Of a stretch of DNA of 43,553 nt, positions 6,075 to 43,553 are shown in pieces. Under the pieces are notes generated by a model. It did no database searches, was not told where the DNA came from, and saw only the letters and a list, made by a program, of their open reading frames with translations. Positions within the stretch are counted from its first letter, which is position 1; every line of letters begins with the position of its first letter. Position numbers and translations under genes: made by a program. The DNA comes from a virus, in the IMG/VR virus record IMGVR_UViG_3300006880_000028, positions 1 through 43,553 of that record. One strand, written 5' to 3'.

Positions 6075-6077
6075 GCG

Positions 6078-7787: not shown

Positions 7788-7789
7788 CG

Positions 7790-8272: not shown

Positions 8273-8283
8273 AAGGAAGTCCT

Positions 8284-8691
8284 ATGTCGATCGAAGACAT
8301 CCTCAAGAAACGCGCGGACGCGAGGGCGAGCCGCTCTGCTCGGGCAGAAGCCGAGCTCGAGACGCAAACTGATCTGCTCGAGAATCCGGACAACGGATTC
8401 TGCATTTTCGACAACGTCCCGGAAGATCTCCCGTGTGTTGTCATCGTGCGCCGGCCGAACCGCGACGAGATAGATCGCTACCGCGCGATCATCTGGCGCA
8501 ACAAGGACGAGCGCGGGGCGACGGAGGCCAAGGCGAAAGCCGCCCCGCAGCTCGCGCGAGGGTGCGTGCTTTACCCCGAGAAGGGGAAGTACGACCAGCT
8601 CGTCGACAAGGTCTCGATGGTTCCCGACGCCGTCGCCCGCGAGTGCATCAAGCTCGCCGAAGGGGGGATGAGAGACCTCTCAAAAGAATAG
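8284..8691 (+). CDS. Tail assembly chaperone, short form (gpG/gp41 type)
   Basis: 135 residues between tube and tape measure, GAAAGGA site upstream. Charged helical protein with an RRPNRDEIDRYRAIIWRNKDE segment and a C-terminal helix (VPDAVARECIKLAEGG), typical of the tail assembly chaperone that coats the tape measure before tube polymerisation. Near the 3' end a GGGGGG run (8662-8667) and a CTCAAAAGA run (8678-8686) provide slip sites for a -1 frameshift. Confidence 0.65.
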   Translation: MSIEDILKKRADARASRSARAEAELETQTDLLENPDNGFCIFDNVPEDLPCVVIVRRPNRDEIDRYRAIIWRNKDERGATEAKAKAAPQLARGCVLYPEKGKYDQLVDKVSMVPDAVARECIKLAEGGMRDLSKE

Positions 8692-8837
8692 AGGATCGGG
8701 TCCTCGCGGGACGAGGATCGCCCGGTGCGATGGCCATCAACATCGCCGCGCTCTTCGCATGCGAATCCCCGGAAGGCATCGCCGGAGCTCACGCAATCGC
8801 CGACCTGATCCACTCCGTGATGTTCCAAAAGAAGTGA
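8662..8837 (+). CDS. -1 frameshift extension of the tail assembly chaperone (gpGT type)
   Basis: The -1 frame is open through the stop of the short chaperone and continues to TGA 8835-8837, encoding about 50 further residues (RVLAGRGSPGAMAINIAALF...DLIHSVMFQKK). There is no independent ribosome-binding site; ATG 8730 lies within it. Programmed -1 frameshifting producing a chaperone fusion at this locus is a conserved feature of tailed phages (lambda G/GT, Mu 41). The slip could occur at the six-G run or at the CTCAAAAG run. Confidence 0.6.
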
Positions 8838-8847
8838 GGACCCAGAC

Positions 8848-10734
8848 GTGGACGGACTCGATTTCCAGCTCGACATCGAACAGCGCTTGCGGGGCGGCGA
8901 TGCCGTAACGGAGCTCGAGCGCCTCGAGGCCGCGTTCGAAGACGCGCAGTCCCGCTATGCCGACTTCGAAAAGGAGTCGCTGAGAGCGGCGAAGGCCCTC
9001 GAGAAGGTCGGCGCGGATGCCGAGATCGCGCGAACGAAGATGCAAGCCGCGATGAACGCCGGCGACGACGCGAAGGTAACGAAGCTCGCCGCTTCTCTCC
9101 AGGAGCTCGCGCAGAAGGAAGCCCGGCTCACGAAGGAAGCGGCCGCGGCAGATGCCGCGATGAGAAAGGAAGCCGAAGCGATCTCGGGCATGGCCGATCA
9201 GATCGGCGAAATGAAGGAAGCGGAGAAAGGAGGCTCCGAACAGGTGGAGGGCGCGGCCAAGGGCTTCAAGAAGCTCGGGGGCCCCCTCGGGCAAGTCGGA
9301 AACCTCGTCGAGGATGTCACCGAAGGCTTCGGCTTTCTCGAAGAGAGCCTCGGCGCCATGGGCGCGATCGCAGCCATCGGCGTAGCTGCCCTCGCGGCAC
9401 TCGCCGTCGGCCTTCTCGCCGTCGGCGCCGCGGCTCTGGGCGGCATCGCAGCCCTCGCCAAGTTCGGCGCGGAGACATCGAACATTCGTCGCGAGCAAGA
9501 GCTCACCCTCGAGGCGATCGCCGGCACCGATGCAGAAGGGCGCATTCTCTCGGAGACGTTCGACGACATCTCGAGATCGACGGCCGTCGGCTCCGAACGC
9601 CTGCTCGACATCACGCGAGATCTCAAGAAGGCCGGGCTCGAGGGAGACGATCTCTCGACGGCCCTTCGCGCGATCGCGGAGCAAGAGAGCGCCCTCGGCG
9701 ACACGAGCGGAACGAGCGATCTCGTAAAGGCGCTCAAAGACGGAACGAAGACAGCGGGCGACTTGGCCGACGAGATGGATCAGAAATATGGCGGCGTCGT
9801 CTCGAAGAAGATCCTCGGCCTCGATCAACAGTTCGCGCAGTTCAAGCGCAACATCGCGAGCATCTTCGGCGGCCTCGATCTCGAGGAATTCCTCGAAGGC
9901 CTCTCGAAGCTCGTCGCTCTCTTCGATACGTCGACCGCGAGCGGCCAGGCCCTAAAGACAATCTTCGAGTCGCTCTTTCAGCCGCTCTTTTCTTCGTCGG
10001 GCGACGTCTTCACGTTCATCGAGCGCGGGTTTCTCCAGCTCGAGATCGTCGCGCTCAAGTTCGGCATCATGGTGAAAGAGGCGCTCAAGGACGGAACGAG
10101 CGGTCTCGATCTCAAGCCGCTAAAGGAGCTCTACGACCTCACGAAGGATCCGGCGTGGACGATGTTCGGCATCGCGCTCGACACCATCGGGATCGGTCTA
10201 CGCGGGATGGCGCTTTTCGGGCTCATGGTCGTTGGTTTCATCGTCGACACCATCAACCTCTCGAGCCGCATGCTCCAGTTTTTCAAGGATCTCGGCGCTG
10301 GCGTCGTCGAAACACAAAAAGCGTTCATGACGCTCGGCAGTGACATCGTCCAGGGGCTCATCGAAGGCATCACGGGCGGCGCTCCGAAGGTGATCCAATC
10401 GATCACGAGCATGGCCTCGGCCGCCGTCGATGCCGCGAAGGCCGTGCTCAAGAGCCACTCTCCTTCCGAGGTCTTCTACGACATCGGCGAGAGCGCGCCG
10501 GCGGGCATGGCTGGAGGCATCGACGACGGTGCCCCCGACGTTGCCGCGGCCGTCACCGACCTCGTCTCGATCCCCGCGGTAAAGAGCGAGGGCAAGGGCG
10601 AGACAGCGAGCGCGCCGATCGGGCCATTTATTTTTCAGATCAACGGCGCACAGGACTCGAAGAGCGTCGCAAACGACATCGAGCTCGTACTCACGGAGTT
10701 CTTCGAGCGGCGAGCTCGCCAGGTTGCGACATGA
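8848..10734 (+). CDS. Tail tape measure protein
   Basis: 628 residues from GTG 8848. Residues 15-140 are a long Glu/Ala/Lys coiled coil; residues 165-215 are a hydrophobic Ala/Gly/Leu block (membrane-insertion type); residues 420-500 are helical and hydrophobic; the C-terminus contains SHSPSEVFYDIGESAPAGMAGGIDDGA, a segment typical of tape measure proteins in Mu-like and other myoviruses. At about 0.15 nm per residue, as for lambda gpH, the tail would be roughly 90 nm long. The last bases overlap the next ATG. Confidence 0.82.
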   Translation: MDGLDFQLDIEQRLRGGDAVTELERLEAAFEDAQSRYADFEKESLRAAKALEKVGADAEIARTKMQAAMNAGDDAKVTKLAASLQELAQKEARLTKEAAAADAAMRKEAEAISGMADQIGEMKEAEKGGSEQVEGAAKGFKKLGGPLGQVGNLVEDVTEGFGFLEESLGAMGAIAAIGVAALAALAVGLLAVGAAALGGIAALAKFGAETSNIRREQELTLEAIAGTDAEGRILSETFDDISRSTAVGSERLLDITRDLKKAGLEGDDLSTALRAIAEQESALGDTSGTSDLVKALKDGTKTAGDLADEMDQKYGGVVSKKILGLDQQFAQFKRNIASIFGGLDLEEFLEGLSKLVALFDTSTASGQALKTIFESLFQPLFSSSGDVFTFIERGFLQLEIVALKFGIMVKEALKDGTSGLDLKPLKELYDLTKDPAWTMFGIALDTIGIGLRGMALFGLMVVGFIVDTINLSSRMLQFFKDLGAGVVETQKAFMTLGSDIVQGLIEGITGGAPKVIQSITSMASAAVDAAKAVLKSHSPSEVFYDIGESAPAGMAGGIDDGAPDVAAAVTDLVSIPAVKSEGKGETASAPIGPFIFQINGAQDSKSVANDIELVLTEFFERRARQVAT

Positions 10735-11309
10735 CGAATCCCGTCCGCAACCCGCGCCTCTATGACTCCTTCAAGCTCGCCGGCCGGCGCTCGCCGGGTC
10801 GGTGCAAGTTCAACTTCCCGAAGCGCGAGCTCGGCTGGGACGTTCAGGTCCCGAAGGGCTCGACGGGTGGAAACACCGTCCTCAACAACACGAAGCCGAT
10901 GCAGTTCGAGGTCGAGATCTACGTCTGGGACGGCGATGACGAGTTCGGCGCGCCCGTCGATCACTTCGCGCGCTGGGACGCGTGGAAAGCCGTCCTCGAT
11001 AAGCCGATCAAACCGACAGATCCGAAGGCTCTCGACATCTTTCATCCGCAGCTCGAGGGGCTCAAGCCGCCCGTTCGCTCTGTTGTTGTGCAGTCGTATT
11101 GCGAGCCGCAGCCGGACGGAAAGGGCGGAGGCACCGCGAAGATCACGCTCCTCGAGTTTCGGCCGATCGTCCCAAAGAAAGCGAAGACGCCGAAGGGGAG
11201 CGATTCCTGGTTCTCGACCGACGAGCTCGCCGGAAAGAAGAGCGATCCCAACGCAGATCTCAAGGCCGAGGTGAAGAAGCTCACCGAAGCCTACAAAAGG
11301 GCCGGGTAA
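10731..11309 (+). CDS. Tail/baseplate protein following tape measure (LysM/XkdP-position)
   Basis: 192 residues, ATGA overlap with the tape measure gene. Beta-rich protein with GWDVQVPKGSTGGNTVLNNTKP, then QFEVEIYVWD and an FHPQLEGLKPPVRSVVV segment, ending in a lysine-rich helix. In myoviruses this place holds a protein that joins the tube end to the hub (XkdP, gp53 or P2 gpU-like). No decisive motif is visible, so the call relies on order and fold pattern. Confidence 0.4.
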   Translation: MTNPVRNPRLYDSFKLAGRRSPGRCKFNFPKRELGWDVQVPKGSTGGNTVLNNTKPMQFEVEIYVWDGDDEFGAPVDHFARWDAWKAVLDKPIKPTDPKALDIFHPQLEGLKPPVRSVVVQSYCEPQPDGKGGGTAKITLLEFRPIVPKKAKTPKGSDSWFSTDELAGKKSDPNADLKAEVKKLTEAYKRAG

Positions 11310-12541
11310 TGACGGACGCCGTCCTTAATGGGGAAAAGGTGCTCCGCGCGAGCGTTGTGCTCCCCCGCTGGGGTGTGTGGACGGCCGACGTCGAGCTCGC
11401 CGGCGATCATGCCCTCGCCGGCGCCGCGAAGCTCGAGATCGGCGGACTCTCCCTCAAGGGCACAATCGTTCACGGCGCTCCCTACGAGGGGCGAAGCTTC
11501 TATCAGATCGACGGCGGAAAAGCGGGCTGGAGAAACGTCGTAAAGCCACGCGCGTATCGGAGCGCGGCCGGCGTCAAGCGCTCGAACATTTTGATCGATG
11601 TGGCGCGCGACGCAGGCGAGGCCCTCGAGCTACCGGCGAACGACACGCGCATCGGTCCGGCGTGGGAATATCCGGAAGACCACGCCGCCCGCACGCTCGA
11701 CGCGATCGCGCCCGAGAATTGGTACGTCGGCGAAGACGGCGTCACGCGGATCGGCGTTCGCACGGCGAAGACATACACGAAACCGCACACGCTTCTCGAC
11801 TCGAGGCCCGAGCACAATCGCATCCTTGTTTCGACGGAGGACCTCACCGGGCTCCTTCCGGGCGCGAAGCTTCATGGGCTCGAGGCGGCGACGATTCGTC
11901 ACGAGATCACTTCCGACACGATGCGCACGCACATCTGGGGAACGGTCGGCGTCTCGCTCTCCGATCGCTTCTGGCAAGCGATCGCGCGGCTCGTTCTGCA
12001 GATCGTGCGCCCGCACTGGTATCACGGCGTCTACGAGTATCGCGTGACGGGCGGCGGAGGCGGTTACCTCAACCTACGGCCGATCGCGGGCTTTCTCCCG
12101 CCGCTTTCGAACGTCCCGATTCGCGTCGGGGCTTATGGCGCTCGAGGAACTCCGCAGACGGGCATGGGTTGCCTCGTCGGTTTCATCAACGCCGATCCGT
12201 CTCGTCCCTTCGTGCACTCCTTCGAAGGACAATGGGGCGGAGCCGCGGTGCCTCCGCTCTCGGCACTCTACGGCGACATCGTCGAGCTCGGCGCCGGCGG
12301 CGGGCCGAAGTGTGCTCGAGCCGGTGACACCGTGAACGCCGGATACATTGTGCTTACCTCGACGGGGCTCGTCAGCACGGCGAGCGGAACAAACGGATAT
12401 TTCCCGGGCGATGACGCGGGGAGCACGGTCAACCAAGGACTCGCGAATAGCGCCGCCGCCTCCTTGGTTCCCGCCGGCTCTGTGCTTGCGATGACGGGTG
12501 GCAAGATCACGAGCGGCTCCGCGAAAGTGAAGGTCGCGTGA
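11309..12541 (+). CDS. Baseplate hub/spike protein
   Basis: 410 residues, start ATG 11309 overlapping the previous TAA. The N-terminal half (beta domains with RSFYQIDGG and ENWYVGEDGVTRIGVR) resembles hub proteins of the gp44/gpD type. The middle contains GYLNLRPIAGFLPPLSNVPIRVGAYG and GMGCLVGFINADPSRPFVHSF, the OB-fold pattern (V.VGF..GDP..P) of baseplate spike proteins (gpV/gp45). It therefore probably combines hub and OB-fold spike functions at the tip of the tail tube. Confidence 0.6.
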   Translation: MTDAVLNGEKVLRASVVLPRWGVWTADVELAGDHALAGAAKLEIGGLSLKGTIVHGAPYEGRSFYQIDGGKAGWRNVVKPRAYRSAAGVKRSNILIDVARDAGEALELPANDTRIGPAWEYPEDHAARTLDAIAPENWYVGEDGVTRIGVRTAKTYTKPHTLLDSRPEHNRILVSTEDLTGLLPGAKLHGLEAATIRHEITSDTMRTHIWGTVGVSLSDRFWQAIARLVLQIVRPHWYHGVYEYRVTGGGGGYLNLRPIAGFLPPLSNVPIRVGAYGARGTPQTGMGCLVGFINADPSRPFVHSFEGQWGGAAVPPLSALYGDIVELGAGGGPKCARAGDTVNAGYIVLTSTGLVSTASGTNGYFPGDDAGSTVNQGLANSAAASLVPAGSVLAMTGGKITSGSAKVKVA

Positions 12542-12954: not shown

Positions 12955-14276
12955 TGGCGGCCGAGACCCTTTTGAAGAGCCTGATCGCGTCGCTCCCGAA
13001 GGAGAAGATCTACCAAAAGTTCGTGGACGTCATGAGCGCGCTCGGCGTGGATACGGAGTCATGGCAGCCAGGCGATCCGACGCGCTCGACCCTCGCCGCC
13101 ATCGCTTCGCGCGAAGCGGAGTGGGAGAATTTCGACACCGGCTTTCCCGTGATGATCAAGGGCATGCTGCTCGGTCTCTCGAGCGGCTCCTGGCTGACGG
13201 TCCTTCTCGAGAAGAACTTCAACGTGTTTCGCGACCCGGCGACGTACGCGACGTGCACGCTTCGGGTGACGAACAACGGGAGCGAGGACTTCGGGACGGT
13301 CGATGCAGGCGATCTCACCACCGCGAATTCGAACGTCGACGGCGAGCCAAACTTCACGAACGACGACGCCTTCGCGCTCGGCCCGAACGACATCGTCGAC
13401 ATCGACATCACCGCGAGCCAAGCCGGCACGGCGAGTAACTCACAGGTCGGCGAAATCGACACCATCGTCGGGACGCCCTTTCCCAATGTGACGGTCACAA
13501 ACATCACCGCCGCGCTCGCGAACGACGAGGAAAGTGATGCGCAAGCGACGGCGCGCGGCCAGGTAAAGAACGAGAGCACGTCGCCGAACGGCCCTAAGGG
13601 CGCCTACGAATATTTCGCGAAGACACCGTCGCCCGAGAACGGCACCGCGCTCGAGCACGGCGTAAGGGCTGCGCTCGGCCTTCTCGGCGAAGAGGAGCCC
13701 GACGTTGAAGGCGCGAAGGAGACGCTATCCAATCTTGTCGCGGCCAAGCCCTCGACGAACGTTACGCGCGTCCGCGTGATCCCTGAATCGGACTTCGGCG
13801 ACGCCATCGTTTTCCTCGCTGGCGCATCTGGCGCCCTTACGACCGACGATCGCGACGCGGCCGAAGAGCGGCTGGAGACATGGGCGAATCCCTTCGTCAT
13901 CAACCTCGTCGTCATCAACGCGGACAACAAATCGATCGCCGTCACCTACGAGCTCTGGGTCTACGACACCATCAACTTGACGACGAGCGAGATCGAAGAC
14001 GTCGTCGAGGACTACCTGCAGGCGCAGATCAAAGAACGCCCCATCGCCGGCGACATCCTCCCAGGCGATACGACCGGCGCGATCTTCTTCGATTGGATCA
14101 AGGCGCAAATCATCGAGGCCGTTGCTCCGCATGCGTTCAAGTGCACGGTGACGGCGCCGAGCGGCGACACAGCGCTCGATCTCACCATCGACACCGACAC
14201 GCCCGAGAATTCGAGCGCCGAAGTCGCGATCCTCGGAACCATCACCGGCACCGTCCACACGGTGGTGAGATCATGA
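12954..14276 (+). CDS. Baseplate J-like protein (Mu gp47 / P2 J)
   Basis: 440 residues, TGATG overlap start. It shows the J-like plan: an N-terminal helical part with SREAEWENF and LGLSSGSWLTVLLEKNFNVFR, a central beta domain containing an AGTASNSQVGEID loop, then an NGPKGAYEYFAKT helix and ferredoxin-like repeats with NVTRVRVIPESDFGDAIVFLAG. It forms the wedge ring around the hub and signals sheath contraction. Confidence 0.75.
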   Translation: MAAETLLKSLIASLPKEKIYQKFVDVMSALGVDTESWQPGDPTRSTLAAIASREAEWENFDTGFPVMIKGMLLGLSSGSWLTVLLEKNFNVFRDPATYATCTLRVTNNGSEDFGTVDAGDLTTANSNVDGEPNFTNDDAFALGPNDIVDIDITASQAGTASNSQVGEIDTIVGTPFPNVTVTNITAALANDEESDAQATARGQVKNESTSPNGPKGAYEYFAKTPSPENGTALEHGVRAALGLLGEEEPDVEGAKETLSNLVAAKPSTNVTRVRVIPESDFGDAIVFLAGASGALTTDDRDAAEERLETWANPFVINLVVINADNKSIAVTYELWVYDTINLTTSEIEDVVEDYLQAQIKERPIAGDILPGDTTGAIFFDWIKAQIIEAVAPHAFKCTVTAPSGDTALDLTIDTDTPENSSAEVAILGTITGTVHTVVRS

Positions 14277-15142
14277 GGTTCCGCGACATCATCAAGAAGC
14301 TCGGTCCCGGATGGCTCGTGAGGGACGTCATCACGATGCCCGATGGGAGCAACGTCGAGGTCGACTCGCGCCTCTTCCGAGCTGTTATGACGTGGTGGGA
14401 CGTTCGCGCGACGCGACTCAAGCTCGGCTTGTACGCGGCGTTGCCAGGCCTCGCGCCGGCGGATGCCCTCTCTTACATCGGCAATCGCCTCGGCATCGAA
14501 CGAGGTCCCGAGGAGCCGCGCGCGAGCTACGAGTACCGTTTGCAGCGCGGCATCGACGACAAGCGCGTCGCCGGAAACGCATGGGCCCTGCTCGAGCAGA
14601 TTCGCGGCTACTGCACGCCGCACGCGGTCCGCGTTCGCATCGTGAACGAGCACGGGCATTGGTACACGATCGATCGCGATGGAACGCGCTCGCGCTATCG
14701 AAACAGCACGTGGGACTGGGACGGCGCGAGCGCTCGAGCGGAGCTTTTCGGCACACGCATTCCGTGGTCGCGCTTCTGGGTCCTGATTTACCCGACGACG
14801 GGATCGCCGAAAGAGCCGTGGGATCGCGACGGCACGTGGGGCAACGGCGAGCTCTGGGGCGATAACCTCGAGACGGAGACGTGGGGCTCGACAGCGTCGC
14901 CGGCGGACGTTCTCGCGATACAGCGCATCATTCAACGCTGGAAGCCGGCCGCGTCGAGGTGCGTCTCGGCGATCATCGTGTTTGACGACGCGGCGTTCGA
15001 TCCGGCTGACACGTCACCACCGCTCGCCGACGGCACCTGGAAAAACTGCGGCCGGTACGGCGTCGTCGCCGGTCGCAAAACCGTGGCGCGTAGCGTCGAC
15101 GCCATCTACTGGCGAGCGTCCTCTGGAGTCGATCCCGCATGA
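14273..15142 (+). CDS. Tail protein, gpI/gp48-like baseplate periphery
   Basis: 289 residues, ATGA-coupled to the J-like gene. It has a helical N-terminus (DALSYIGNRLGIERGPEEP, ASYEYRLQRGIDDKRVAGNA) and a Trp-rich region (STWDWDG, WGDNLETETWGS) followed by VLAIQRIIQRWKPAASRCVSAIIVFDD. This WKPA..R...I pattern recurs in tail proteins located between gpJ-like and fibre genes. It probably connects fibres to the baseplate. Confidence 0.5.
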   Translation: MRFRDIIKKLGPGWLVRDVITMPDGSNVEVDSRLFRAVMTWWDVRATRLKLGLYAALPGLAPADALSYIGNRLGIERGPEEPRASYEYRLQRGIDDKRVAGNAWALLEQIRGYCTPHAVRVRIVNEHGHWYTIDRDGTRSRYRNSTWDWDGASARAELFGTRIPWSRFWVLIYPTTGSPKEPWDRDGTWGNGELWGDNLETETWGSTASPADVLAIQRIIQRWKPAASRCVSAIIVFDDAAFDPADTSPPLADGTWKNCGRYGVVAGRKTVARSVDAIYWRASSGVDPA

Positions 15143-16302
15143 GCACTTCCTACACACCGAAGCCCCGAGCACAGCAGACGTTCACGAAGCCCCAGGACGG
15201 CGACAACAAGGACGTCGCCTCGATCAACATCGCTGTCGAGGGCCTCGCCGACTCGGATGCGCGAACGCATCTCGCCGAGGCGATGGAATGGGGCCCAGCA
15301 ATCACGACGGCAAAAGACGTCGTGCGCGGGGCGTATTCGCTGAAGGAGCAATCGTGGTTCACCGTCGGCCCTGGCGCGAACGACTTCCTTCTGCGGTCGC
15401 AGGACAGCGGCCGATCGTGGGTCGATCTCAGCGGGACCATCGGCGTCGACGACGCGCTATCGACGTACGACATCGCCATCAACGCGGCCGGGCAAGCCGT
15501 AATCATCAACGTGGGCACGCAGGATATCTACGAGTCGGCCTACGGTGGTTATGCCGGCTTCGCGTTTTCGACGTCCGCCGGCGTCCTCAACGCTGCGATG
15601 ACGGCGGGCCAGATCATCTTCGAAGAGGTCAACGATCTTTGGCTCGCTCTCTACCGGACGACGGGCAGCGGCATGCGGGCGGACACGTCGCCCAATCGAA
15701 CGGCGTGGACGAACCAAACGCTTCCCGCCGGATGGGCGGCCTACAACAACTCGACGCAAAACCCGCGTGTCGCCGCAAACGATGCGGGCAGGATCGTCGC
15801 TCTTTTCTACGACGACACCGCGCTCAATTTGAAATATCGGTTCGCCTACTCCACCGACGGCGGCGTGAACTGGACGGCCGGCACCGCGCTCACCCCCGGC
15901 TTCGGGCCGGCGACGGATTGTGTTTCGAAGCCCACCTACGATCCTGACTTCGACGACTGGTACTTCTGCGCCGCGGAAACGACGGGCACCAATTCGACAG
16001 AGGTCTATCGATCGGAAGACGGCGGCGCGACATGGTCGATCGTCTACTCGAACATCAACACGGATAATTACGCCTTCGTAGCGATCGCGTGGTTCAACGG
16101 CGTGCTCGTCGCCTCCAACATCGGCGGGCGAATCTTCTTCTCTACCGATCGCGGCGTCACCTGGAAGCTCGCCACGCGAAACCTCCTGAACGGCGCATGC
16201 CGACCTTGGCTCAGCGTCGGCAACGGGCAGCTCCTCGTCATCGACGACACCGACAACGTTTCCTATGTCACGCGCCGCCTCGGCGCAGTGGGAGGTGGGT
16301 GA
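15139..16302 (+). CDS. Tail fibre with Asp-box (BNR) beta-propeller
   Basis: 387 residues, ATGA-coupled. After an N-terminal attachment segment (about 1-45), four Asp-box motifs S-x-D-x-G-x-x-W are visible: SQDSGRSW (about 87), STDGGVNW (about 237), SEDGGATW (about 292) and STDRGVTW (about 335). Asp boxes mark blades of sialidase-type propellers, so the body should be a glycan-binding or glycan-cleaving propeller. Sialidase catalytic residues cannot be assigned by eye, so binding is the safer role. It begins the receptor-binding cluster. Confidence 0.65.
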   Translation: MSTSYTPKPRAQQTFTKPQDGDNKDVASINIAVEGLADSDARTHLAEAMEWGPAITTAKDVVRGAYSLKEQSWFTVGPGANDFLLRSQDSGRSWVDLSGTIGVDDALSTYDIAINAAGQAVIINVGTQDIYESAYGGYAGFAFSTSAGVLNAAMTAGQIIFEEVNDLWLALYRTTGSGMRADTSPNRTAWTNQTLPAGWAAYNNSTQNPRVAANDAGRIVALFYDDTALNLKYRFAYSTDGGVNWTAGTALTPGFGPATDCVSKPTYDPDFDDWYFCAAETTGTNSTEVYRSEDGGATWSIVYSNINTDNYAFVAIAWFNGVLVASNIGGRIFFSTDRGVTWKLATRNLLNGACRPWLSVGNGQLLVIDDTDNVSYVTRRLGAVGGG

Positions 16303-16862
16303 TGAGCGATTTCGCAGACGACCTCCTCCCGATCCGCAAGATCTTCGTCGACGGCGTCGAGCAGCCCTTCATTCGCGACGTCGACTTCAAGAGCGGCGCC
16401 TTCACCGTCACCGTCGATACTGAGAACGGCGTCCTATCGATCGAGAGCTCCGGCGTCATCGCGAAGGACGAATCCACGTTCGGCGAAGAAGCAGACGTCG
16501 TTTCCCGATTGGTGCGCTACTTCTCGACGGACTCAGGCATCGTCACAGCCGACAGCTACACGATGGCGAATGGCGAGGCACTCTACGACTTCATCATCAC
16601 CGTCAACGGCAAAAAGCGGCTCGACTCCGATGCGTACTGCCGTGACCACCGCGTGAAGTACCGCCGCACGGCGAGCGGCGCGCCTTCAATCCTTGGCTCA
16701 CTTGTCAGTGGCACAGAAGATCGCGACGGCGACCTCGCGACAGCGACCTCAACGATTGATCTCAGCTCCAACGATCTTCGCGTTCGCATCACGCCCAACA
16801 CGGGCTCCGATGTCGACTGGACGATCACGATGCAGGTGCAGATCACGAGGGATGTCACGTGA
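16302..16862 (+). CDS. Hypothetical fibre-associated beta protein
   Basis: 186 residues with an internal GGAGGTGGGTG ribosome-binding region inside the end of the propeller gene. The N-terminus (IRKIFVDGVEQPFIRDVDFKSG) and the FTVTVDTENGVLSIESSG strand look like a virion attachment domain. The second half alternates strands with IDLSSNDLRVRITPNTGSDVDWTITMQVQ. No family is recognised; the position inside the fibre cluster suggests a fibre chaperone or adaptor. Confidence 0.45.
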   Translation: MSDFADDLLPIRKIFVDGVEQPFIRDVDFKSGAFTVTVDTENGVLSIESSGVIAKDESTFGEEADVVSRLVRYFSTDSGIVTADSYTMANGEALYDFIITVNGKKRLDSDAYCRDHRVKYRRTASGAPSILGSLVSGTEDRDGDLATATSTIDLSSNDLRVRITPNTGSDVDWTITMQVQITRDVT

Positions 16863-17599
16863 CACCTCCCTTCGGTGTCGGCCTCGCGTTCAAGCATCCG
16901 GCCAAAGGGGCAGCTCCGTTCTCGCCGCTCGACTTGCCAAATCTCGAGCTGTGGCTCGACGCCTCGGACACGGGCGGCGTCGACATGACCAATCTCACCA
17001 CTTGGCTTGATCTCAGCGGCAACGGGATTGACCTCGACGCTCAAGACGGCGCCAACGTTTTTCATGCGACGGGCGGACCGAACAATCAGCCCTACGTCGG
17101 GTTCTCGGCTGGCGGCCTTTACCGACTCTCCCCTCTCATCGCTGGCGCCGATGCTGCGCGCACCATGTTCGTCGTCTCGCGGCGCGGAGCGGACGGTTGC
17201 GTGTGCGTCTTCGATGGGCGCTACGGATTCAACGGCTTCGCTTACACCTACGGTCTCGCGACATCGAACAAACGCGAGGTCTACCTGGGCGGAGTCGCTG
17301 GCGAATACGACACCGGCTCGAACGCAACGAACAATTGGGAAAAGGTCTGCTGCATCAATACCGGGACCGGCGGATCGTCAGGCGCCCAACGTTTTCGACT
17401 GAATGGCGCCGAGCGAACTCTCAGCGCGAGCAACGCAACGGAGGGGGCGAGCACGCTTTATTTCTCGGTCGGTGGCGATCACCCGTCAACGCTTCCGCTC
17501 AACGGCGACGTCGCCGAGGTCATCATTTGCTCCGGCGTCACGTCGGCCGACGACATCGATCTCACGGAGGCGTACTTGCTCGACAAGTACGGCGTCTAA
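16859..17599 (+). CDS. Concanavalin A/LamG-like lectin fibre protein
   Basis: 246 residues from GTG 16859 (GTGA overlap). The pattern LELWLDASD...TTWLDLSGNGIDLDAQ, PYVGFSAGG, a FVVSRRG strand and a RFRLNGAERTLS strand, then LPLNGDVAEVIICSGVTSADDIDLTEAYLLDKYG, is characteristic of LamG/ConA-like jelly-roll domains in phage and secreted proteins, where the last segment is the terminal helix. It is likely a carbohydrate-binding fibre module. Confidence 0.6.
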   Translation: MTPPFGVGLAFKHPAKGAAPFSPLDLPNLELWLDASDTGGVDMTNLTTWLDLSGNGIDLDAQDGANVFHATGGPNNQPYVGFSAGGLYRLSPLIAGADAARTMFVVSRRGADGCVCVFDGRYGFNGFAYTYGLATSNKREVYLGGVAGEYDTGSNATNNWEKVCCINTGTGGSSGAQRFRLNGAERTLSASNATEGASTLYFSVGGDHPSTLPLNGDVAEVIICSGVTSADDIDLTEAYLLDKYGV

Positions 17600-19885
17600 A
17601 TGAAGCAGCCGTTCGAAGATGCCGCCTATGCCGGCCGGCCGAAGAAGCCGCGCATGGCGCGCATCGCTCTTAGTTCGATTACCCCAAGCGAGGGCGAAAC
17701 AGGCGGGGGAACCGAGATCTCGATCGGAGGAGCGAACCTCGAGGACGTCACCGACGTCCTCATCGGCGGCACGCCTGCGCGAGTCACCGCTCGGAGCTCT
17801 GGAACAGTCGAGGCGACGACATTGCCGCGCGAAGCCGGCGCCGATCTCGACGTCGTCGTTATTGCAAGCGTTGGAACTCGAGTGATCGGTGAGGCCACCC
17901 TGCTCGCCGCGTTCTCGTATTTGGACGCGCCCGTCCCCACCGTCGTTTCCGCTAGCCCGTCACAGGTAGACACGCATGGCGGCACACTCGTGAAGATCGA
18001 GGGCACGGGCTTCGTCGGCACCCCGTCGATCACCATCGATGGTCTCGATGCACCGCTCGCGTGGCTCGAGAGCGACACCGTCCTCTATGCGCGATCGCCG
18101 GCGCATGCGTCGGAGGAGGACCTCGACGTCGTGGTCACGACGATCGGCGGCGTGTCCACCGGCGGCGAAGGATTCATCGAGGCGTGGTATCCAACGGAGG
18201 AATCAGGACTCTCTGTTTTTGACTCGCGTTTCGGCGTAACGGGATCGCCCGCATCGGCCTGGGCCGACCAAGGTGCCGGCGGAAACGATTTGTCATCGGC
18301 TGGTTCCGCTCGCCCAGCGGTAAAAGCGAACGCGTTTAGTGATGGCGTTACGGGGTTGAGCTCTGACGGCGGCGACGATGTGATGACGCTCGCGGCTCCG
18401 GTCGCCGTTCCTACCCACATCGAACGACTCGCCGTCATTCGATGGGATACCGACGTCGCGACTGGCGCCATTCACGGCGGGACAGGATCCGCAGTCGTCG
18501 ATTTCGCCGTCGATCGCACGCCCGGACAGCCGGGCCTGCGGACATACGATGCTGACGAGATATTCAACCATCACCAACCGATCGCGAATCTGAACAACGG
18601 ATCGCCCTACTGCGTTGCCGCGACACACGACGGCGTTTCGGGAGATTTGAAGTTTCGAAAGGATGGCGCACAAATCGGCGGAACGCAAACGGACACATTC
18701 GGAAATACGCGCGTCAACTGGGATCGCGTCTTCGGTGCGGCCGGCAACTTTTTCAAGGGATACGTCGGCGCTGTGCTCGTCAAGGTGGGAACGATCACCG
18801 ACTTCGCGAAGTGCGAGACCTGGTGCCGAGCAGAATTCGTTCAGCAGACTCCGGTGATGTCGCTCGTCAGCTCCGACGCCTTCGGGGATCCGCGCGATGG
18901 CGCCTTGATGCTCAAGGGACCGCTCGCCGGCGAGTGGTTCATTCTCTTCGGTTGGAACAACAATTGGGGCGCGCCGCTCACGCTTGATCGCGTGACGAAC
19001 GAGGTTCTTCGATCGACAGACGATTGCGTCACCTTCACGACGATTCTCGCGCGAGACGCCTCGCCGCCAGCAAATCGGCCCCCTTGTCAGCACTCATGCG
19101 GATGGCTCGTGAAAGAGGGCTACATCTACGCGATCGGCGGGGACGGTGCGTACTCCAATCATCGGGAGATCTATCGCGCCCCAATCACCGCCGATGGCTT
19201 GACGAACGGATGGGAGCACGTCGCGACCGGCCCTTGGCCGATCGATTGTCTCTCGCAAACGTTCGCGATCGGCAGCCGAATGTGGAAGATCGCCGGACAA
19301 GAGGTCTGGGACGATCCAGGAACGGCGCACCGACGGACGTACTATTCCGACGACGACGGCGAAACGTGGACGCAAGGGCCAGATTGCCCGGCGGAGCTCG
19401 CTGGCGGCCTCATTCAGAATCCGTTGCCCGTTGCGGTAATCGACGGACGCCTGCAAGCGATCTTTGTGTGCGGTGGTGGAACGAGCGACACGGACGGCTC
19501 GACGCGCACGTATCGAAACAGCGTGATCACGTTCGATGGTGAGACGTACACGACGCACATCGCGGATGGTGCTGGCCCGTTTAGCGCGCGCGTCTATCCC
19601 GCGGTTCGCGTGTTCCGTGATCGAGTTGCTCTTTGGAATGGCGCTCGTTGGAACGGCAGCGAGTCCGAAAACATCGGGGACATGTGGTCGGCTCGGCTTA
19701 CCGATCTCACGCTCACCGGATGGCGCCAGGAATTCCACGGTGTCGGCAAGGCGGTTCCTTGGCTTCCGTCGCATGCGGACGGCGTTGCCGTCGACGCCGA
19801 CAGGATCATGCTCGGCCCGGGAAACGGCGGCATCGGCAACGACACGGGCACCGTCCACAAAATCGAACCGATCCCATTCGCATGA
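17600..19885 (+). CDS. Large multidomain receptor-binding protein: TIG-TIG-LamG-propeller
   Basis: 761 residues; ATG directly follows the TAA of the preceding gene. Two IPT/TIG immunoglobulin domains are recognisable from ITPSEGETGGGTEISIGGANL (about 27) and VVSASPSQVDTHGGTLVKIEGTGF (about 115). A LamG-like domain follows (about 195-400, with AWADQGAGGNDLSSAG and GDLKFRKDGAQIGG). Residues 420-761 read as a kelch/Asp-box propeller with SDDDGETW near 590. It has the architecture of an exposed adhesin and is probably the main or accessory receptor-binding protein. Confidence 0.6.
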   Translation: MKQPFEDAAYAGRPKKPRMARIALSSITPSEGETGGGTEISIGGANLEDVTDVLIGGTPARVTARSSGTVEATTLPREAGADLDVVVIASVGTRVIGEATLLAAFSYLDAPVPTVVSASPSQVDTHGGTLVKIEGTGFVGTPSITIDGLDAPLAWLESDTVLYARSPAHASEEDLDVVVTTIGGVSTGGEGFIEAWYPTEESGLSVFDSRFGVTGSPASAWADQGAGGNDLSSAGSARPAVKANAFSDGVTGLSSDGGDDVMTLAAPVAVPTHIERLAVIRWDTDVATGAIHGGTGSAVVDFAVDRTPGQPGLRTYDADEIFNHHQPIANLNNGSPYCVAATHDGVSGDLKFRKDGAQIGGTQTDTFGNTRVNWDRVFGAAGNFFKGYVGAVLVKVGTITDFAKCETWCRAEFVQQTPVMSLVSSDAFGDPRDGALMLKGPLAGEWFILFGWNNNWGAPLTLDRVTNEVLRSTDDCVTFTTILARDASPPANRPPCQHSCGWLVKEGYIYAIGGDGAYSNHREIYRAPITADGLTNGWEHVATGPWPIDCLSQTFAIGSRMWKIAGQEVWDDPGTAHRRTYYSDDDGETWTQGPDCPAELAGGLIQNPLPVAVIDGRLQAIFVCGGGTSDTDGSTRTYRNSVITFDGETYTTHIADGAGPFSARVYPAVRVFRDRVALWNGARWNGSESENIGDMWSARLTDLTLTGWRQEFHGVGKAVPWLPSHADGVAVDADRIMLGPGNGGIGNDTGTVHKIEPIPFA

Positions 19886-20112
19886 ACCGAACGTGCATCC
19901 ACTGTGGAAAGGACTACTCAGCGGCCGAGATTTGGGCGCTCCCTCTCGCGAAGAAGCACGGCGGGCGTGTCCTCATCTCCGGAGAGATGCACGAATATCG
20001 CGTGTGCACGTGCGGCTCACACATCCTTCTCGTTTATCCGCGCCGCGAGACGCCGCCGGCGTCGATTCCCGTTGCTGCTTTCGCGGAGGCGAACGATGCC
20101 CGACGCCGCTGA
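19882..20112 (+). CDS. Small zinc-ribbon-like protein (paralogue of 35010-35498)
   Basis: 76 residues, ATGA overlap. CIHCGKDY at the N-terminus and RVCTCGSH at about 42 give a four-cysteine zinc-ribbon pattern separated by a WALPL segment. The same pattern (CSCGKRY, WAGLPL, RNCPCGST) occurs in the gene at 35010-35498 on the other strand. The gene overlaps the start of the receiver-domain gene by 17 bases, suggesting coupled expression with it. Function unknown; a regulatory partner of the receiver protein is possible. Confidence 0.5.
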   Translation: MNRTCIHCGKDYSAAEIWALPLAKKHGGRVLISGEMHEYRVCTCGSHILLVYPRRETPPASIPVAAFAEANDARRR

Positions 20113-20500
20113 GAATCCGCGCGTCTTCATCGTTGACGACGAGAAGCCGCTCACCATGGCGATGTGGCGAGGCTTGCCGCGTACGTTCGACTTGCTTCTT
20201 ACGCACAGCGCGCGCTTCGCACTCGACGTGCTCAATGCCGACGTCGACTTCGATGTCGTACTGCTCGACATCGTCATGCCCGATCTCAATGGCCTCACCC
20301 TCTTCGAGAAGCTCCGTGCGACGGCGCCGGCGCGCGCAGATCGCATTGTCTTCATGACCGGCGGGTTGCAGATACCCGCCGTCGCGGACTACCTCCGAGG
20401 GCTCGACAATCGCGTCCTCGAGAAACCGTTCACGCTCGACGAGGCCGAGCGAATCGTCAGCATTTATTCCAGCATGTACACGCCACGGGGTCCGCGATGA
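20096..20500 (+). CDS. Stand-alone response-regulator receiver domain (CheY-like)
   Basis: 134 residues; GGAGG lies 7 bases before ATG 20096. The full receiver signature is present: acidic pair D14-D15 (VFIVDDE), phosphoacceptor D58 (VVLLDIVMPDLNG), T88 (VFMTGG) and K110 (VLEKPF). There is no output domain. Such proteins are phosphorylated by histidine kinases and act by binding partners. Here it sits in the late operon between receptor-binding and lysis genes, an unusual place, and could capture host two-component signalling. All catalytic residues are intact, so it should be active. Confidence 0.85.
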   Translation: MPDAAENPRVFIVDDEKPLTMAMWRGLPRTFDLLLTHSARFALDVLNADVDFDVVLLDIVMPDLNGLTLFEKLRATAPARADRIVFMTGGLQIPAVADYLRGLDNRVLEKPFTLDEAERIVSIYSSMYTPRGPR

Positions 20501-20515
20501 AGGCGGCGTCGTGAC

Positions 20516-20890
20516 ATGCCGAGCTTCAAGGACCTATCGGATGCACAGCGCTGGGCGAACGAGCACGAGGCGCTCCACAAGCGCGAGCGCGAATCGATTC
20601 GGGACGAGGTGCGCGACATGAACGACGCGGCGATCCGTCACATCGAACGAGCGCTCGAGCCCGTCTCGAGCATAGAGAAGAAGGTCGACCGGGCGATCAA
20701 GCAAAACCGCCGTCAGTCGAAGGGCATCGAGGGCGTCGCAGAAGAGCTCAAGGCCGCGCGTGAGGAGCGGCTTAGTCGAAAGGCTGTCGAGATCGAAGAT
20801 CGCAAGCGTCGCAAGCGCCTTCTCACCATCCTTGCCGCCATCACCCCTGTACTCGTCGCCGCGCTCGCGGCTTGGAAAGGTTGCCATTGA
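20516..20890 (+). CDS. Coiled-coil protein with C-terminal membrane anchor (XhlA-like lysis protein)
   Basis: 124 residues. Residues 10-95 are strongly charged and coiled-coil-like; residues about 101-120 (LLTILAAITPVLVAALAAW) form one membrane segment, followed by KGCH. This is the layout of XhlA-type haemolysin/holin-associated proteins. With the next two genes it forms a likely lysis cassette, even though the endolysin lies 4 kb downstream. Confidence 0.45.
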   Translation: MPSFKDLSDAQRWANEHEALHKRERESIRDEVRDMNDAAIRHIERALEPVSSIEKKVDRAIKQNRRQSKGIEGVAEELKAAREERLSRKAVEIEDRKRRKRLLTILAAITPVLVAALAAWKGCH

Positions 20891-21468
20891 TGTTCACCTG
20901 GCTCGAAGCTCACCCAGTCTTCTACACAATGTTCTTTCTCCCGCTGGCGCTCGCAATCGGCGGCGGGATCTTCAACGCGTTCGCGCGAAAGCGCACGCCA
21001 GAGGAGTACGCCGCGATGCCGCAACGGGTGGCCGGCTTTCTACGGCTCATGAGCGCGATCTTCCCGGACCCCGATAAGACGCGCGACGCGGCGAAGCAAA
21101 TGATGACGAACGCTCCGCCGTCGAATCCCACGAGGAGCTTGCAAGCAGGGGAAAGCGTTCCGCCCCCTATTCCAAAACCAGATACGACCGCGCCGCTCGT
21201 TCTTTTGCTCGTCGCGATCGGCTCCGTTCTCTCGCTGACGCCATACGCGCTCTGCTCGTGCGGGCCGAATCAGCCGGCGCTGATTCCTCCGAATCCGGAC
21301 GGCGCAAACTGCAACGCCAAGAAAACGAAGCGGGAGCTCGATTGCGTCGAGACACACACGACGCGAGCGGAGATCGACGCGTGCCGGGCGGACGTCAAGA
21401 GGTCGATCGATTGCGCGACCGACGCCGGCGTCGCGGCGTTCGTCGCATCGAAGGAAGGTGGAACATGA
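20890..21468 (+). CDS. Membrane protein with lipobox-like cysteine; spanin/holin candidate
   Basis: 192 residues, TGATG coupling. Hydrophobic segments at about 8-28 and 102-122; the second ends in YALCSCG, resembling a lipoprotein signal, and is followed by a periplasmic-looking tail with four more cysteines (CNAKK, LDCVETH, DACRADV, IDCATD). It could be a unimolecular spanin, a holin with a periplasmic tail, or two fused genes. No family is recognised with confidence. Confidence 0.4.
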   Translation: MFTWLEAHPVFYTMFFLPLALAIGGGIFNAFARKRTPEEYAAMPQRVAGFLRLMSAIFPDPDKTRDAAKQMMTNAPPSNPTRSLQAGESVPPPIPKPDTTAPLVLLLVAIGSVLSLTPYALCSCGPNQPALIPPNPDGANCNAKKTKRELDCVETHTTRAEIDACRADVKRSIDCATDAGVAAFVASKEGGT

Positions 21469-21692
21469 TCGCCGAAACCATTCTCGGACTTCTGCCCTCG
21501 CTCTTCGGTGCGGTGCGAGAAGCGGCTGCGCTGGTTTCTCCAAGAGCCGGCACCATCGCAAAATACGCCGAGCGCTTCGTCACGTTCGCGATCCAAGCAG
21601 AAAAGGACGGGCTCGCTTCGTCCGCGATCCTTCAAGGCATCGGGGAGATCTACGTCGATCTCGTCGAGGACGTGAAGCTCGGAGTCCAATGA
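21465..21692 (+). CDS. Small hypothetical protein, lysis/fibre interval
   Basis: 75 residues, ATGA overlap, GGAAGGTGG upstream. Begins MIAETILGLLPSLFGAVREAAALV, an amphipathic to hydrophobic helix, and ends with IYVDLVEDVKLGVQ. Size and place are compatible with an antiholin or small inner-membrane protein, but nothing decisive is visible. Confidence 0.4.
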   Translation: MIAETILGLLPSLFGAVREAAALVSPRAGTIAKYAERFVTFAIQAEKDGLASSAILQGIGEIYVDLVEDVKLGVQ

Positions 21693-21979
21693 GCGGGAAT
21701 CGACGGCCGAGCGGTACGACGGTGATTTCTCCCGATTGCCCGAAATGCAAAGGGAAAGGGCACGTCCCCCTCGGACTGGTCGCCGAAGTCGTCAAATGCT
21801 CGGAATGCGGCGGCACGGGAAAAGTCACGCTCGAGCGCGCCGGCGAGCTCTTCGGTCTTGAGCCGATTACGCGCCGCTCCACTCCAGAGGCGCTCGAGGC
21901 CGTGCGCGTCGACGACAGAGACACGGATCCGGCGCCCCCGATACCAAGAATCGATCACCGACGGGAGCCGGACGAATGA
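21689..21979 (+). CDS. DnaJ-type CXXCXGXG zinc-finger protein
   Basis: 96 residues, ATGA overlap. Two CXXCXGXG elements are present: CPKCKGKG at about 17 and CSECGGTG at about 37, the half-site pattern of the DnaJ cysteine-rich domain that binds one zinc ion. The remainder is acidic and Pro-rich. It lacks a J domain. It may assist folding of the large fibre proteins encoded around it; this is inferred. Confidence 0.55.
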   Translation: MSGNRRPSGTTVISPDCPKCKGKGHVPLGLVAEVVKCSECGGTGKVTLERAGELFGLEPITRRSTPEALEAVRVDDRDTDPAPPIPRIDHRREPDE

Positions 21980-24044: not shown

Positions 24045-25046
24045 TTGGGGCTCTACGATGCGCAATGGTTCGATGAAGCTCCTATAGCGAGCTGGTTCGA
24101 TCAAGAGTTCGAGACGCCGACGGGCGTGCTCGCAAAGACGCTCGAGGACGCGACGCTCAGCGCAACGGGGATCTCGACGATCACGGGCGCGGTCTCGAAG
24201 ACTCTCGAGAACGCGACGCTCGCAGCAACGGGAACATCGACGATTACGGCAAGCCTTTCGAAGACGCTCGCCGATGCGACCCTCGTCGCGACCGGCGTGA
24301 GCATCGTCTCTGGCGCAGTCGCTGTCACGCTCGAGGAGGCTTCGCTCGCGTCGACGGCGAAGGCGATTATTGCCGGCACACTCTCGAAGACTCTCGACGA
24401 CGCGACGGCTGCGAGCGCCGGCGTTTCGATCGTGGCGGGCACGACGAACGGACAGCTCGCGGATGCGACCCTTTCCGCGAGCGGGACGTCGACGATCAAG
24501 GCCGCGGCGGCCGTTGTGCTTGCCGATGCGAGCCTTTCCGCGTCGGGAGTCTCGAAGATCCATGGCTCTGTATCGGTAGGTCTCGAGAATGCCTCGCTTG
24601 CGGCCAGCGGGATCTCGAAGGTGATGGGTGCCGTCGACGCGATTCTCGAAGGAGCAACCCTCGTAGCGACGGGCACGTCGTCGATCGCCGCATCGCTCGG
24701 CATCACGCTCGAGGACGCTTCGCTCGTTGCGACGGGTGGGATCGCCGGCAGCACTCCGGTTCATGGCGTCCTGGACGTCACGCTCGAGGACGCCACGGCG
24801 GCGAGCTCCGCGGTCTCCCCCGTCGCGGGCACCCTCGGCGCGCTGCTCGACGACGTCGTGCTCGTAGCGACGGGGGCCGCGTTCTTCCCGGAGATCGTCT
24901 TCGCCGGCGCGAGCGAGGTTGGTGAGATCGCGCTCCGCTCAGGCGTCTCGCCCGAGCTCAGCGAGTCCTTCGAAGAGGACACGCTCCTCGAAAGCAAAGT
25001 CTCGAAACCATTCTTCGCAAACAGCACCGTCGGGGAGGCAGCATGA
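24045..25046 (+). CDS. Repeat-rich tail protein with twelve 21-residue repeats
   Basis: 333 residues from TTG 24045 with GGTGA 5 bases upstream; no ATG or GTG is available before the repeats. Opens GLYDAQWFDEAPIASWFDQEF, a leader seen on phage tail proteins. It is followed by twelve copies of a 21-residue unit of the form G-x-L-x-K-T-L-x-D-A-x-L-x-A-T-G-x-S-x-I-x; copy 10 has a four-residue insertion. The regularity suggests a solenoid or fibrous stalk. The end (FFANSTVGEAA) overlaps the endolysin start. Confidence 0.55.
   Translation: MGLYDAQWFDEAPIASWFDQEFETPTGVLAKTLEDATLSATGISTITGAVSKTLENATLAATGTSTITASLSKTLADATLVATGVSIVSGAVAVTLEEASLASTAKAIIAGTLSKTLDDATAASAGVSIVAGTTNGQLADATLSASGTSTIKAAAAVVLADASLSASGVSKIHGSVSVGLENASLAASGISKVMGAVDAILEGATLVATGTSSIAASLGITLEDASLVATGGIAGSTPVHGVLDVTLEDATAASSAVSPVAGTLGALLDDVVLVATGAAFFPEIVFAGASEVGEIALRSGVSPELSESFEEDTLLESKVSKPFFANSTVGEAA
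24123..24890 (+). repeat. Twelve tandem coding repeats, 63-bp period
   Basis: Units begin at 24123, 24186 and so on at 63-bp steps, each encoding 21 residues; unit 10 is 75 bp. Third positions differ between copies, so the protein pattern is kept by selection rather than by recent duplication. Confidence 0.75.
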
Positions 25047-25741
25047 TCGAAGGCATCGACGTATCGTCCGCGAATCTCGTTCCGACGTGGAGCGAGGTCC
25101 CCGAGGAACTCGCGTTCGCGTACATCCGCGCGACGCACGGAAAGGCGCGTGACGGCCGCCTCACCGCCCATTGGAACGCGTGCGTCATGGCCTCTCGAAT
25201 GTGCGGCGCCTATACGTTCGAGGAGCCCGACGACGATCCGCTCGACGAGGTCGCCGCCTTCGTCGACACGGACGCCGTTCACATGGTTCTTCCGCCGGCG
25301 CTCGACGTCGAGTGGCTGGGCGGGCGGACGCCGAAGCAGGTACTTACGTACACGCGGGGCTTCCTCGACGATCTCGAGAAGCGCATCGCTCGAGTGCCGA
25401 TGATCTACACGGGCCCGTCGTTTTGGATGAACCTCGGCGCCGAGGCGAAGCATCCGGACTTTGCGCGCTATCCGCTATGGATCGCGCACTACGGCGCAGC
25501 GAAGCCGATCGTTCCTGCGCCGTGGGATCGGTGGACGTTCTGGCAGGACAGGGCGAACACGATCGTTCAAACGCCCGACGGAAAGCAGCTCTTCGGAACG
25601 CCCGCGCGAAAGGCGCTTGCGGAAATCCCCGGCGCGAAGATCATCGCCCAGCCCGGCATCGTGAAAGGCGTGCAAGGCGAGGTCGATCACAACTTCTACA
25701 ACGGGACGATCGACGATCTCAAAAAGCTCGCTGGCTTCTAG
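25043..25741 (+). CDS. GH25 family endolysin (lysozyme)
   Basis: 232 residues, GGGGAGG upstream, ATGA overlap with the previous gene. Glycoside hydrolase 25 signature: GIDVS with D6, FAYIRATHG, the PPALDVEW strand with D88 and E90, YTGPSFW, PLWIAHYGA, WTFWQD, and a terminal VDHNFYNGT. The enzyme cleaves the N-acetylmuramic acid to N-acetylglucosamine bond of peptidoglycan for host lysis. There is no signal peptide or separate wall-binding domain, so it needs a holin. Its TAG shares the tetranucleotide CTAG (25738-25741) with the stop of the convergent gene. Confidence 0.9.
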   Translation: MIEGIDVSSANLVPTWSEVPEELAFAYIRATHGKARDGRLTAHWNACVMASRMCGAYTFEEPDDDPLDEVAAFVDTDAVHMVLPPALDVEWLGGRTPKQVLTYTRGFLDDLEKRIARVPMIYTGPSFWMNLGAEAKHPDFARYPLWIAHYGAAKPIVPAPWDRWTFWQDRANTIVQTPDGKQLFGTPARKALAEIPGAKIIAQPGIVKGVQGEVDHNFYNGTIDDLKKLAGF

Positions 25742-25959
25742 GTCGAAGGGCCGAGACCGCTCGAAGGTTTCGGCGCGCACGTCTTACACCACCAATGCCA
25801 GCGCTCGCGCTCTTTCCCCGCTCGAGCGCATTCCAGCCATCCGATGCGGGTGAGATCGAAGCGGGCGTCGTCGACGTTGTCCTCGTCGAGCTCGGCGGTC
25901 GCTCCGCATTTGTCGCACGTCGCGACGTAGCACGTCTTGCCGGGCGGGATCGCGAGCAT
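25738..25959 (-). CDS. Small zinc-ribbon protein
   Basis: 73 residues, minus strand, starting 4 bases after the lipoprotein stop. CYVATCDKCG at the N-terminus and WWCKTC near residue 58 give a two-CXXC zinc-ribbon, with an acidic LDEDNVDDARF middle. Convergent with the endolysin; the two stop codons overlap on opposite strands. Probably co-transcribed with the lipoprotein. Function unknown. Confidence 0.5.
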   Translation of the reverse strand: MLAIPPGKTCYVATCDKCGATAELDEDNVDDARFDLTRIGWLECARAGKERERWHWWCKTCAPKPSSGLGPST

Positions 25960-25962
25960 GAT

Positions 25963-26361
25963 TTATTTGCACCACCCCTGGATGTTTTGCGGCTCGAGCA
26001 CGCACTTCGAGCCCTGCTGACAGGGCGGCGTCCAGTTCTGGCACGCCGAACGCGTGGTGCAATCGAGGCCTTTGCACACGGAGTATTGCCCCGGACTCGT
26101 TTGACCTCCGTCGATGGTTGGCGAAAACGGGCAGACGTACTTCCCACCGTCGACGAGGCAGTAGCCGCCGAAGAAGACGGGCGGCTCCTCCTTCGCGTCG
26201 TAGACGTCGATGCCAGCGTCGATCGTCGGCGCTGCTTCCTTCGCCGCGTCCTTCGGCGAGCTCGCATCTTTCGGCGGGATGACGATGTCGTCGTCCGGGA
26301 CGAACGAGACGCTCGAGCAGGCAAGGGTGAGCGCGGCGGTGAAGAGAGCGAGAAGGCGCAT
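25963..26361 (-). CDS. Cysteine-rich lipoprotein, probable lysogenic-conversion (moron) gene
   Basis: 132 residues. MRLLALFTAALTLAC is a lipoprotein signal peptide with lipobox LTLAC (C15). A disordered Asp/Ala/Pro linker follows (PPKDASSPKDAAKEAAPTID), then a domain with eight cysteines (YCLVDGGKYVC, YSVCKGLDC, ACQNW, PCQQGSKC, WCK), suggesting a disulphide-bonded exported domain. It lies opposite to the late operon, between endolysin and attP, the usual place for genes expressed by the prophage. Possible role in superinfection exclusion or surface change; inferred. Confidence 0.6.
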   Translation of the reverse strand: MRLLALFTAALTLACSSVSFVPDDDIVIPPKDASSPKDAAKEAAPTIDAGIDVYDAKEEPPVFFGGYCLVDGGKYVCPFSPTIDGGQTSPGQYSVCKGLDCTTRSACQNWTPPCQQGSKCVLEPQNIQGWCK

Positions 26362-43149: not shown

Positions 43150-43176
43150 TGTCTCGCTGCGTCATAAGGAGGCCCC

Positions 43177-43483: not shown

Positions 43484-43553
43484 ACGCATTTTTTGAAGAG
43501 GGGTGGGGCCATCCGTTTGCGGGGGTATACCCCTCCCCTCGAGGCCCGCAGCG
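43468..43553 (+). CDS. Start of next gene, truncated by window edge
   Basis: ATG 43468 has a perfect GGAGGT 4 bases upstream. The visible product MPIEIDAFFEEGWGHPFAGV continues off the window. A 12-bp palindrome GGGGTATACCCC lies inside it. Too short to name. Confidence 0.4.
   Translation, partial: MPIEIDAFFEEGWGHPFAGVYPSPRGPQ

Follow-up and report, generated by a model that had tools for sequence, protein, structure and literature searches.

The timing of lysis is usually ascribed to the holins of the phage or, in lysis inhibition, to superinfection. Single-domain receivers as well as regulators borne by phages are already known, and one of the former, EpsW of Myxococcus, works by contacting a membrane enzyme directly (PMC12802240). 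A conserved bare receiver in the block of a phage genome that runs from the tail fibres to lysis is apparently new, since no description of such a case was found in the open-access literature searched. Two similar-sounding cases were considered and set aside: in the pinholin of phage N4 (PMC12642591) the term "receiver domain" shares the name only, denoting a regulatory region and not a CheY-like receiver, and RoeA, which controls a lysis cassette of Yersinia, does so at the level of transcription as a DNA-binding regulator of the PhoB type (PMC10101115).

Herein a receiver of this kind is described from the window, i.e. the whole stretch of DNA analysed, which is the entire IMG/VR virus record IMGVR_UViG_3300006880_000028 of 43,553 bases. 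Its head-tail set comprises a head protease, capsid-type, tail sheath, tape-measure and baseplate proteins, and its other genes include those for an integrase, a ParB-like protein, an exonuclease, an Erf-like annealing protein, a DnaB-like helicase and a GH25 endolysin. Judged by this gene content, the virus is a temperate contractile-tailed phage. Neither a terminase nor a portal could be recognised in the scanned ORFs of the window (the ends at 1-930 and 43000-43553 being noted), so that the record is probably incomplete at one end.

The receiver gene and its neighbours

The gene in question, REC, encodes a stand-alone CheY-like receiver of 134 aa at 20096-20500 (+), with its ATG at 20096 and its stop at 20500, and the GGAGG at 20085-20089 (+), 6 nt ahead of the start codon, is its probable ribosome-binding site. 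The assignment is based on the translation, the Pfam profile, a structure model and an ortholog in a second phage. In fact REC is the sole match in the record to the Pfam family Response_reg (PF00072; E 1.6e-12, 48 bits against a cut-off of 30.2), and its AlphaFold model, with a mean pLDDT of 89, has the receiver fold and retrieves 561 PDB matches at E<=0.001. The original prediction of a complete CheY-like receiver is well borne out, as D14 and D15 (the acidic pair), D58 (the phospho-Asp), T88 (the Thr/Ser) and K110 (the Lys) are all present at the residue numbers predicted. The claim that it has no output domain likewise holds, as the receiver domain covers residues 10-117 and none was found in the rest of this free-standing ORF, which is not part of a kinase polypeptide. 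A chance ORF is ruled out by the profile score, the ortholog and the synteny, and the view of REC as one half of a regulator-kinase pair was rejected because the window yielded no kinase gene. Most likely REC is a single-domain response regulator that host kinases would phosphorylate and that would act late, either on lysis-membrane proteins or as a kinase decoy.

The location between receptor-binding and lysis genes was also predicted correctly. Upstream are genes for a BNR-repeat tail protein at 15139-16302 (+) (Pfam BNR, E 9.3e-9), a LamG-like virion-type protein at 16859-17599 (+) (phrog_10356, E 1.5e-17) and a TIG-domain adhesin or tail-fibre-type protein of 761 aa at 17600-19885 (+) (Pfam TIG, E 1.8e-18), which are 32%, 59% and 43% identical to their counterparts in the second phage, L097. 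Next comes ZnR, a 76-aa four-Cys zinc-ribbon-like protein at 19882-20112 (+), whose gene begins within the last bases of the TIG gene, sharing its stop codon region, and contains the start of REC. Downstream, REC is followed by a coiled-coil-like protein at 20516-20890 (+) which has a single TM helix at its C-terminus by hydropathy and whose relatives immediately follow REC in L097 and a further phage, L099; a protein at 20872-21468 (+) that combines two hydrophobic stretches with a lipoprotein-like, Cys-rich C-terminal part, its start codon being uncertain, with relatives in the same two phages; a small protein of the same block (MIAETILGLLPSLFGAV...) encoded by the ORF at 21465-21692 (+), similar by eye to small proteins at this place in both; and ZnR2, a CxxCxGxG zinc-ribbon-like protein at 21689-21979 (+), 74-76% identical in L097. 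The recognisable endolysin, a GH25 enzyme at 25043-25741 (+) (Pfam Glyco_hydro_25, E 1.1e-23; phrog_6219), is 4.5 kb downstream of REC. The protein at 20516-20890 is a candidate lysis-membrane protein and a putative partner of REC, and that at 20872-21468 may also act in the lysis block, while holin or spanin roles for these neighbours are guesses from topology. We tentatively hold, with somewhat less than even confidence, that REC is a host-derived regulator under selection, which would be phosphorylated by kinases and bind a neighbouring membrane protein to tune the time of lysis.

Besides, an opposite-strand pair follows the endolysin at 25738-26361 (-), one gene encoding a small protein rich in Cys and the other a lipoprotein-like protein whose tail is Cys-rich, and a similar lipoprotein-like gene (13089-13739, -) stands after the endolysin of L097. 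The pair in the window could possibly be lysogenic-conversion genes.

Conservation of the block in other phages

The kin of REC came to light when IMG/VR was scanned with an alignment that combined REC with receivers of hybrid kinases. Scans of IMG/VR with one protein at a time gave no hit, tblastn with the REC, ZnR, TIG, baseplate and DnaB proteins gave no close relatives among 50,697 phage records, REC had no close relatives among plasmids either, and the membrane protein of the lysis block had no match in 318 genomes in a search run with no positive control. Marker searches with LamG and ZnR2 yielded L097 (IMGVR_UViG_3300043432_000417, 45,140 bases) as the only close relative. Its gene order is that of the window, from BNR through LamG, TIG, ZnR, REC, the coiled-coil/TM protein, the membrane/Cys protein and ZnR2 to the endolysin, which is an amidase standing where the window has GH25. 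The two phages are 55% identical in ZnR, 48% in REC, 30% in the coiled-coil/TM protein and 44% in the membrane/Cys protein. Since L097 is syntenic, with diverged ZnR and REC and an overlap between these two genes of 17 nt as in the window, the block is not chance cargo. Moreover the codons of REC agree in 62, 68 and 50% at positions 1, 2 and 3, and by this comparison the protein is constrained while its silent sites drift. The top DNA-level match between the two records spans 19772-20390.

It is also observed that the block from LamG to ZnR2 (16859-21979 in the window, 6681-11778 in L097) is far better kept than the head-tail genes, which diverge more (25% identity in the sheath, 28% in the baseplate). 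As the head-tail genes are less alike, the block has its own, closer history, and it looks as if it moves as one module.

Two more distant loci were obtained. In L098, a contig of 193,844 bases, ZnR (35% identity) is followed by REC (43%) and the endolysin lies 5.3 kb beyond, with no recognisable cassette in the genes directly after REC; immediately ahead of the pair, at 4949-9553, this contig encodes a tail-fibre-like protein of 1534 aa with many SISDSIxAPSDA-type repeats. In L099 (94,388 bases), REC (32%) is followed by a coiled-coil/TM protein, a TM protein, a lipoprotein-like gene, a second ribbon and GH25. The five catalytic residues are intact in all four related copies of REC. Elsewhere the copies vary: the beta5 position, which in CheY is Tyr and bears on signalling through the 4-5-5 face, carries Val in two copies, those of the window and L098, with Tyr in L097 and Trp in L099, and the FMTGGL of the window agrees with the FATGUY-type motif only at FxTG.

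These relatives bear on whether REC is simply lysogeny cargo or a neutral passenger, that is, a host receiver useful to the lysogen or to nobody and with no role in lysis. Complete regulator-kinase pairs do occur in a cargo-like manner in Stenotrophomonas phage Bhz63 and Mycobacterium prophiGD05-1. Moreover distant prophages, which came from the baseplate and protease searches, share the head-tail genes of the window and have neither REC nor ZnR where their downstream part was read. However, the synteny, the same-strand overlap and the survival of the catalytic residues in copies that share only about 48% identity speak against a passenger, and no promoter-like site of REC's own was found in a scan limited to sigma-70 types. 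A recent acquisition of host cargo is disfavoured in particular, with REC kept in the diverged phage L097 and its silent sites diverged. The original prediction reckoned with chance cargo if the pair were absent from all related phages; the pair is present in L097 and L098, and we regard the cargo reading as quite improbable.

The same comparison can be used to examine ZnR as the output of REC, in which the phosphorylated receiver would control ZnR and ZnR would have nucleic acid or a host protein as its target. The original prediction of a Cys4 gene overlapping the receiver stands as to the overlap; the label zinc ribbon is taken from the cysteine pattern (Cys 5, 8, 42 and 44), because none of the Pfam zinc families reaches its cut-off against ZnR, and a search of PDB folds with the ZnR model gave no match and is uninformative. 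The Cys pairs are retained as CxC or CxxC in four relatives, and ZnR may bind zinc. A coupling of the two proteins, also predicted, agrees with their genes overlapping in the window and L097 and adjoining in L098, and there is the precedent of the single-domain receiver CpdR, which binds the zinc finger of ClpX (as cited in PMC9981736). However, no ZnR was seen beside the receivers that occupy this place in L099 and in the phage L102 considered below, and overlapping genes are frequent across this operon. The coupling is weakened further by a second ribbon protein of the ZnR type that the window phage encodes in its early region, at 35010-35498 (-) (ICSCGKRYTPETW...RNCPCGST / CSCGKRYTPETW...RNCPCGST), and by similar ribbons that bacterial genomes hold with no receiver. 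A physical pairing of REC and ZnR is possible but not likely, and ZnR as the output seems improbable to us.

Origin of the receiver

The best cellular matches to REC, sought in 184 genomes of one bacterial order, are about 35-46% identical. Among the 30 nearest that were examined, 28 form the C-terminal receiver of an ORF that has histidine-kinase boxes or the length of a kinase, and one REC-like match fully checked by Pfam has the architecture PAS-HisKA-HATPase-REC. The motif VAHEINN is found in most of the hybrid-kinase ORFs with REC-like receivers. In the tree, the receivers of the window, L097 and L099 unite (96/77), and with the hybrid-kinase receiver L067 as their sister they form the starred set (96/93). 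The receiver of L098 is not firmly placed, and one clade of all four phage copies is not rejected (p-AU 0.52). The original prediction had suggested placing the receiver against host receivers in a phylogeny, and once placed it groups with hybrid-kinase receivers from an order that looks myxobacterial. A hybrid histidine kinase of the host was apparently the source from which the phage took REC, by capture of the C-terminal receiver, and because REC is a free-standing ORF, it is considered to derive from this group, known as Rec-inter, and not to be a member of it.

The order with the kin of REC has genomes of up to 16 Mb and also holds the distant prophages with the same head-tail genes. The size of these genomes, together with what is generally known of hybrid kinases in myxobacteria, leads us to infer that the order is myxobacterial, and since it is taken as such, the host would be a myxobacterium, as the original prediction also supposed.

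The kinship to the receivers of the kinases themselves is also what would be expected if REC were a decoy or sink, which is the main rival to lysis control. As a mimic of these receivers it would dock on the DHp domain and drain or block the phosphate, shifting the motility, development or envelope responses of the host during infection or lysogeny, and the lysis neighbourhood would be incidental. There are precedents in Osp, a single-domain regulator inhibiting the hybrid kinase CckA (PMC9430884), and in the phage protein PIT4, a binder of several histidine kinase domains (PMC10714779). However, a gene for host takeover would not be looked for first among the late genes, and the DHp-facing helix alpha1, in which the window and L097 share 6 of 13 residues, shows no greater conservation than the remaining domain. 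Such a decoy is conceivable, though we consider it rather unlikely.

Receivers in lysis cassettes and comparison with known systems

Apart from the kin of REC, a phage record of 52,967 bases (L102, IMGVR_UViG_3300025921_000005) encodes at 9998-10459 a receiver with a C-terminal TM helix, amid a possible holin, a lipoprotein-like gene and a CHAP endolysin. This receiver is unrelated to REC and falls on the OmpR/NtrC side of the tree; on that placement, it is an independent arrival at a phage lysis cassette. In another record, L100 (IMGVR_UViG_3300032053_000237), a single-domain receiver is followed directly by a membrane histidine kinase gene (9989-12222), possibly a phage-borne receiver-kinase pair. 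Five of the six free-standing phage receivers encountered (window, L097, L098, L099, L100 and L102) lie between tail-type genes and the endolysin, the exception being L100 with its adjoining kinase gene, and this count is small, post hoc and drawn partly from related phages that are not independent. The 4.5 kb between REC and GH25 in the window and the genes after REC in L098, which form no recognisable cassette, likewise tell against control of lysis. In the window, L097, L099 and L102, again a small sample, the receiver is encoded together with genes whose lysis roles are presumed. It is worth mentioning that many receiver-bearing "phage" records, for instance Listeria phage LM 4-11-1 and Acinetobacter phage MD-2021a among others, resemble contigs of host chromosomes, and these should not be counted as phage-borne regulators.

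The recurring position on the lysis side, along with the membrane-anchored receiver in the cassette of L102, favours timing of lysis among the roles originally proposed. More specifically, after its capture the REC gene would have been kept under selection in the tail-fibre-to-lysis block and, judging from its position, REC would be made late with the late genes. Host hybrid kinases of the VAHEINN type would phosphorylate it, as its kinship and intact residues suggest, and it may bind a partner in a phospho-dependent manner, for which EpsW serves as the precedent. The partner would be a membrane protein of the lysis block, with the coiled-coil/TM protein at 20516-20890 as the first candidate, and the time of lysis would then follow the activity of the host kinases, as the neighbourhoods in the window, L097 and L099 and the receiver-TM protein of L102 hint. 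A wider and more doubtful idea is that a captured receiver, elsewhere anchored in the membrane, senses host kinases and gates the membrane proteins of lysis, by which the exit of the phage would follow the physiological or developmental state of its host. If the proposal is true, the two-component signalling of the host is a direct input to the lysis timing of a phage, and REC is a rare case in a virus of a host hybrid-kinase receiver kept as a free-standing protein.

In comparison with the systems described so far, the cREC of jumbo phages (PMC7824862) resembles REC in being a receiver-like fold encoded by a phage, but it is tied to NAD/ADP-ribose enzymes and is not known from histidine-kinase systems, whereas REC is canonical and of the hybrid-kinase type. 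PIT4 of Pseudomonas phage LSL4 aims at host two-component signalling and is a functional parallel to the decoy reading, while it differs as an early protein which binds histidine kinase domains and is not described as a receiver (PMC10714779). The pairs of Bhz63 and prophiGD05-1 share with the window phage a response regulator in a phage genome, but theirs are multi-domain regulators of the DNA-binding type with a kinase beside them, whereas REC is a bare receiver in a window where no kinase gene was found. CpdR, Osp and EpsW (PMC9981736, PMC9430884, PMC12802240) are receivers with no output domain for which contact with a partner is expected, as for REC; they are cellular with known pathways, while REC is viral. 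Closest of all in sequence are the C-terminal receivers of hybrid kinases, the Rec-inter group, which have in common with REC the 35-46% identity, the length, the catalytic residues and the FxTGG after beta4, and from which REC differs by being encoded alone, free of the PAS-HisKA-HATPase part, within the late block of a phage.
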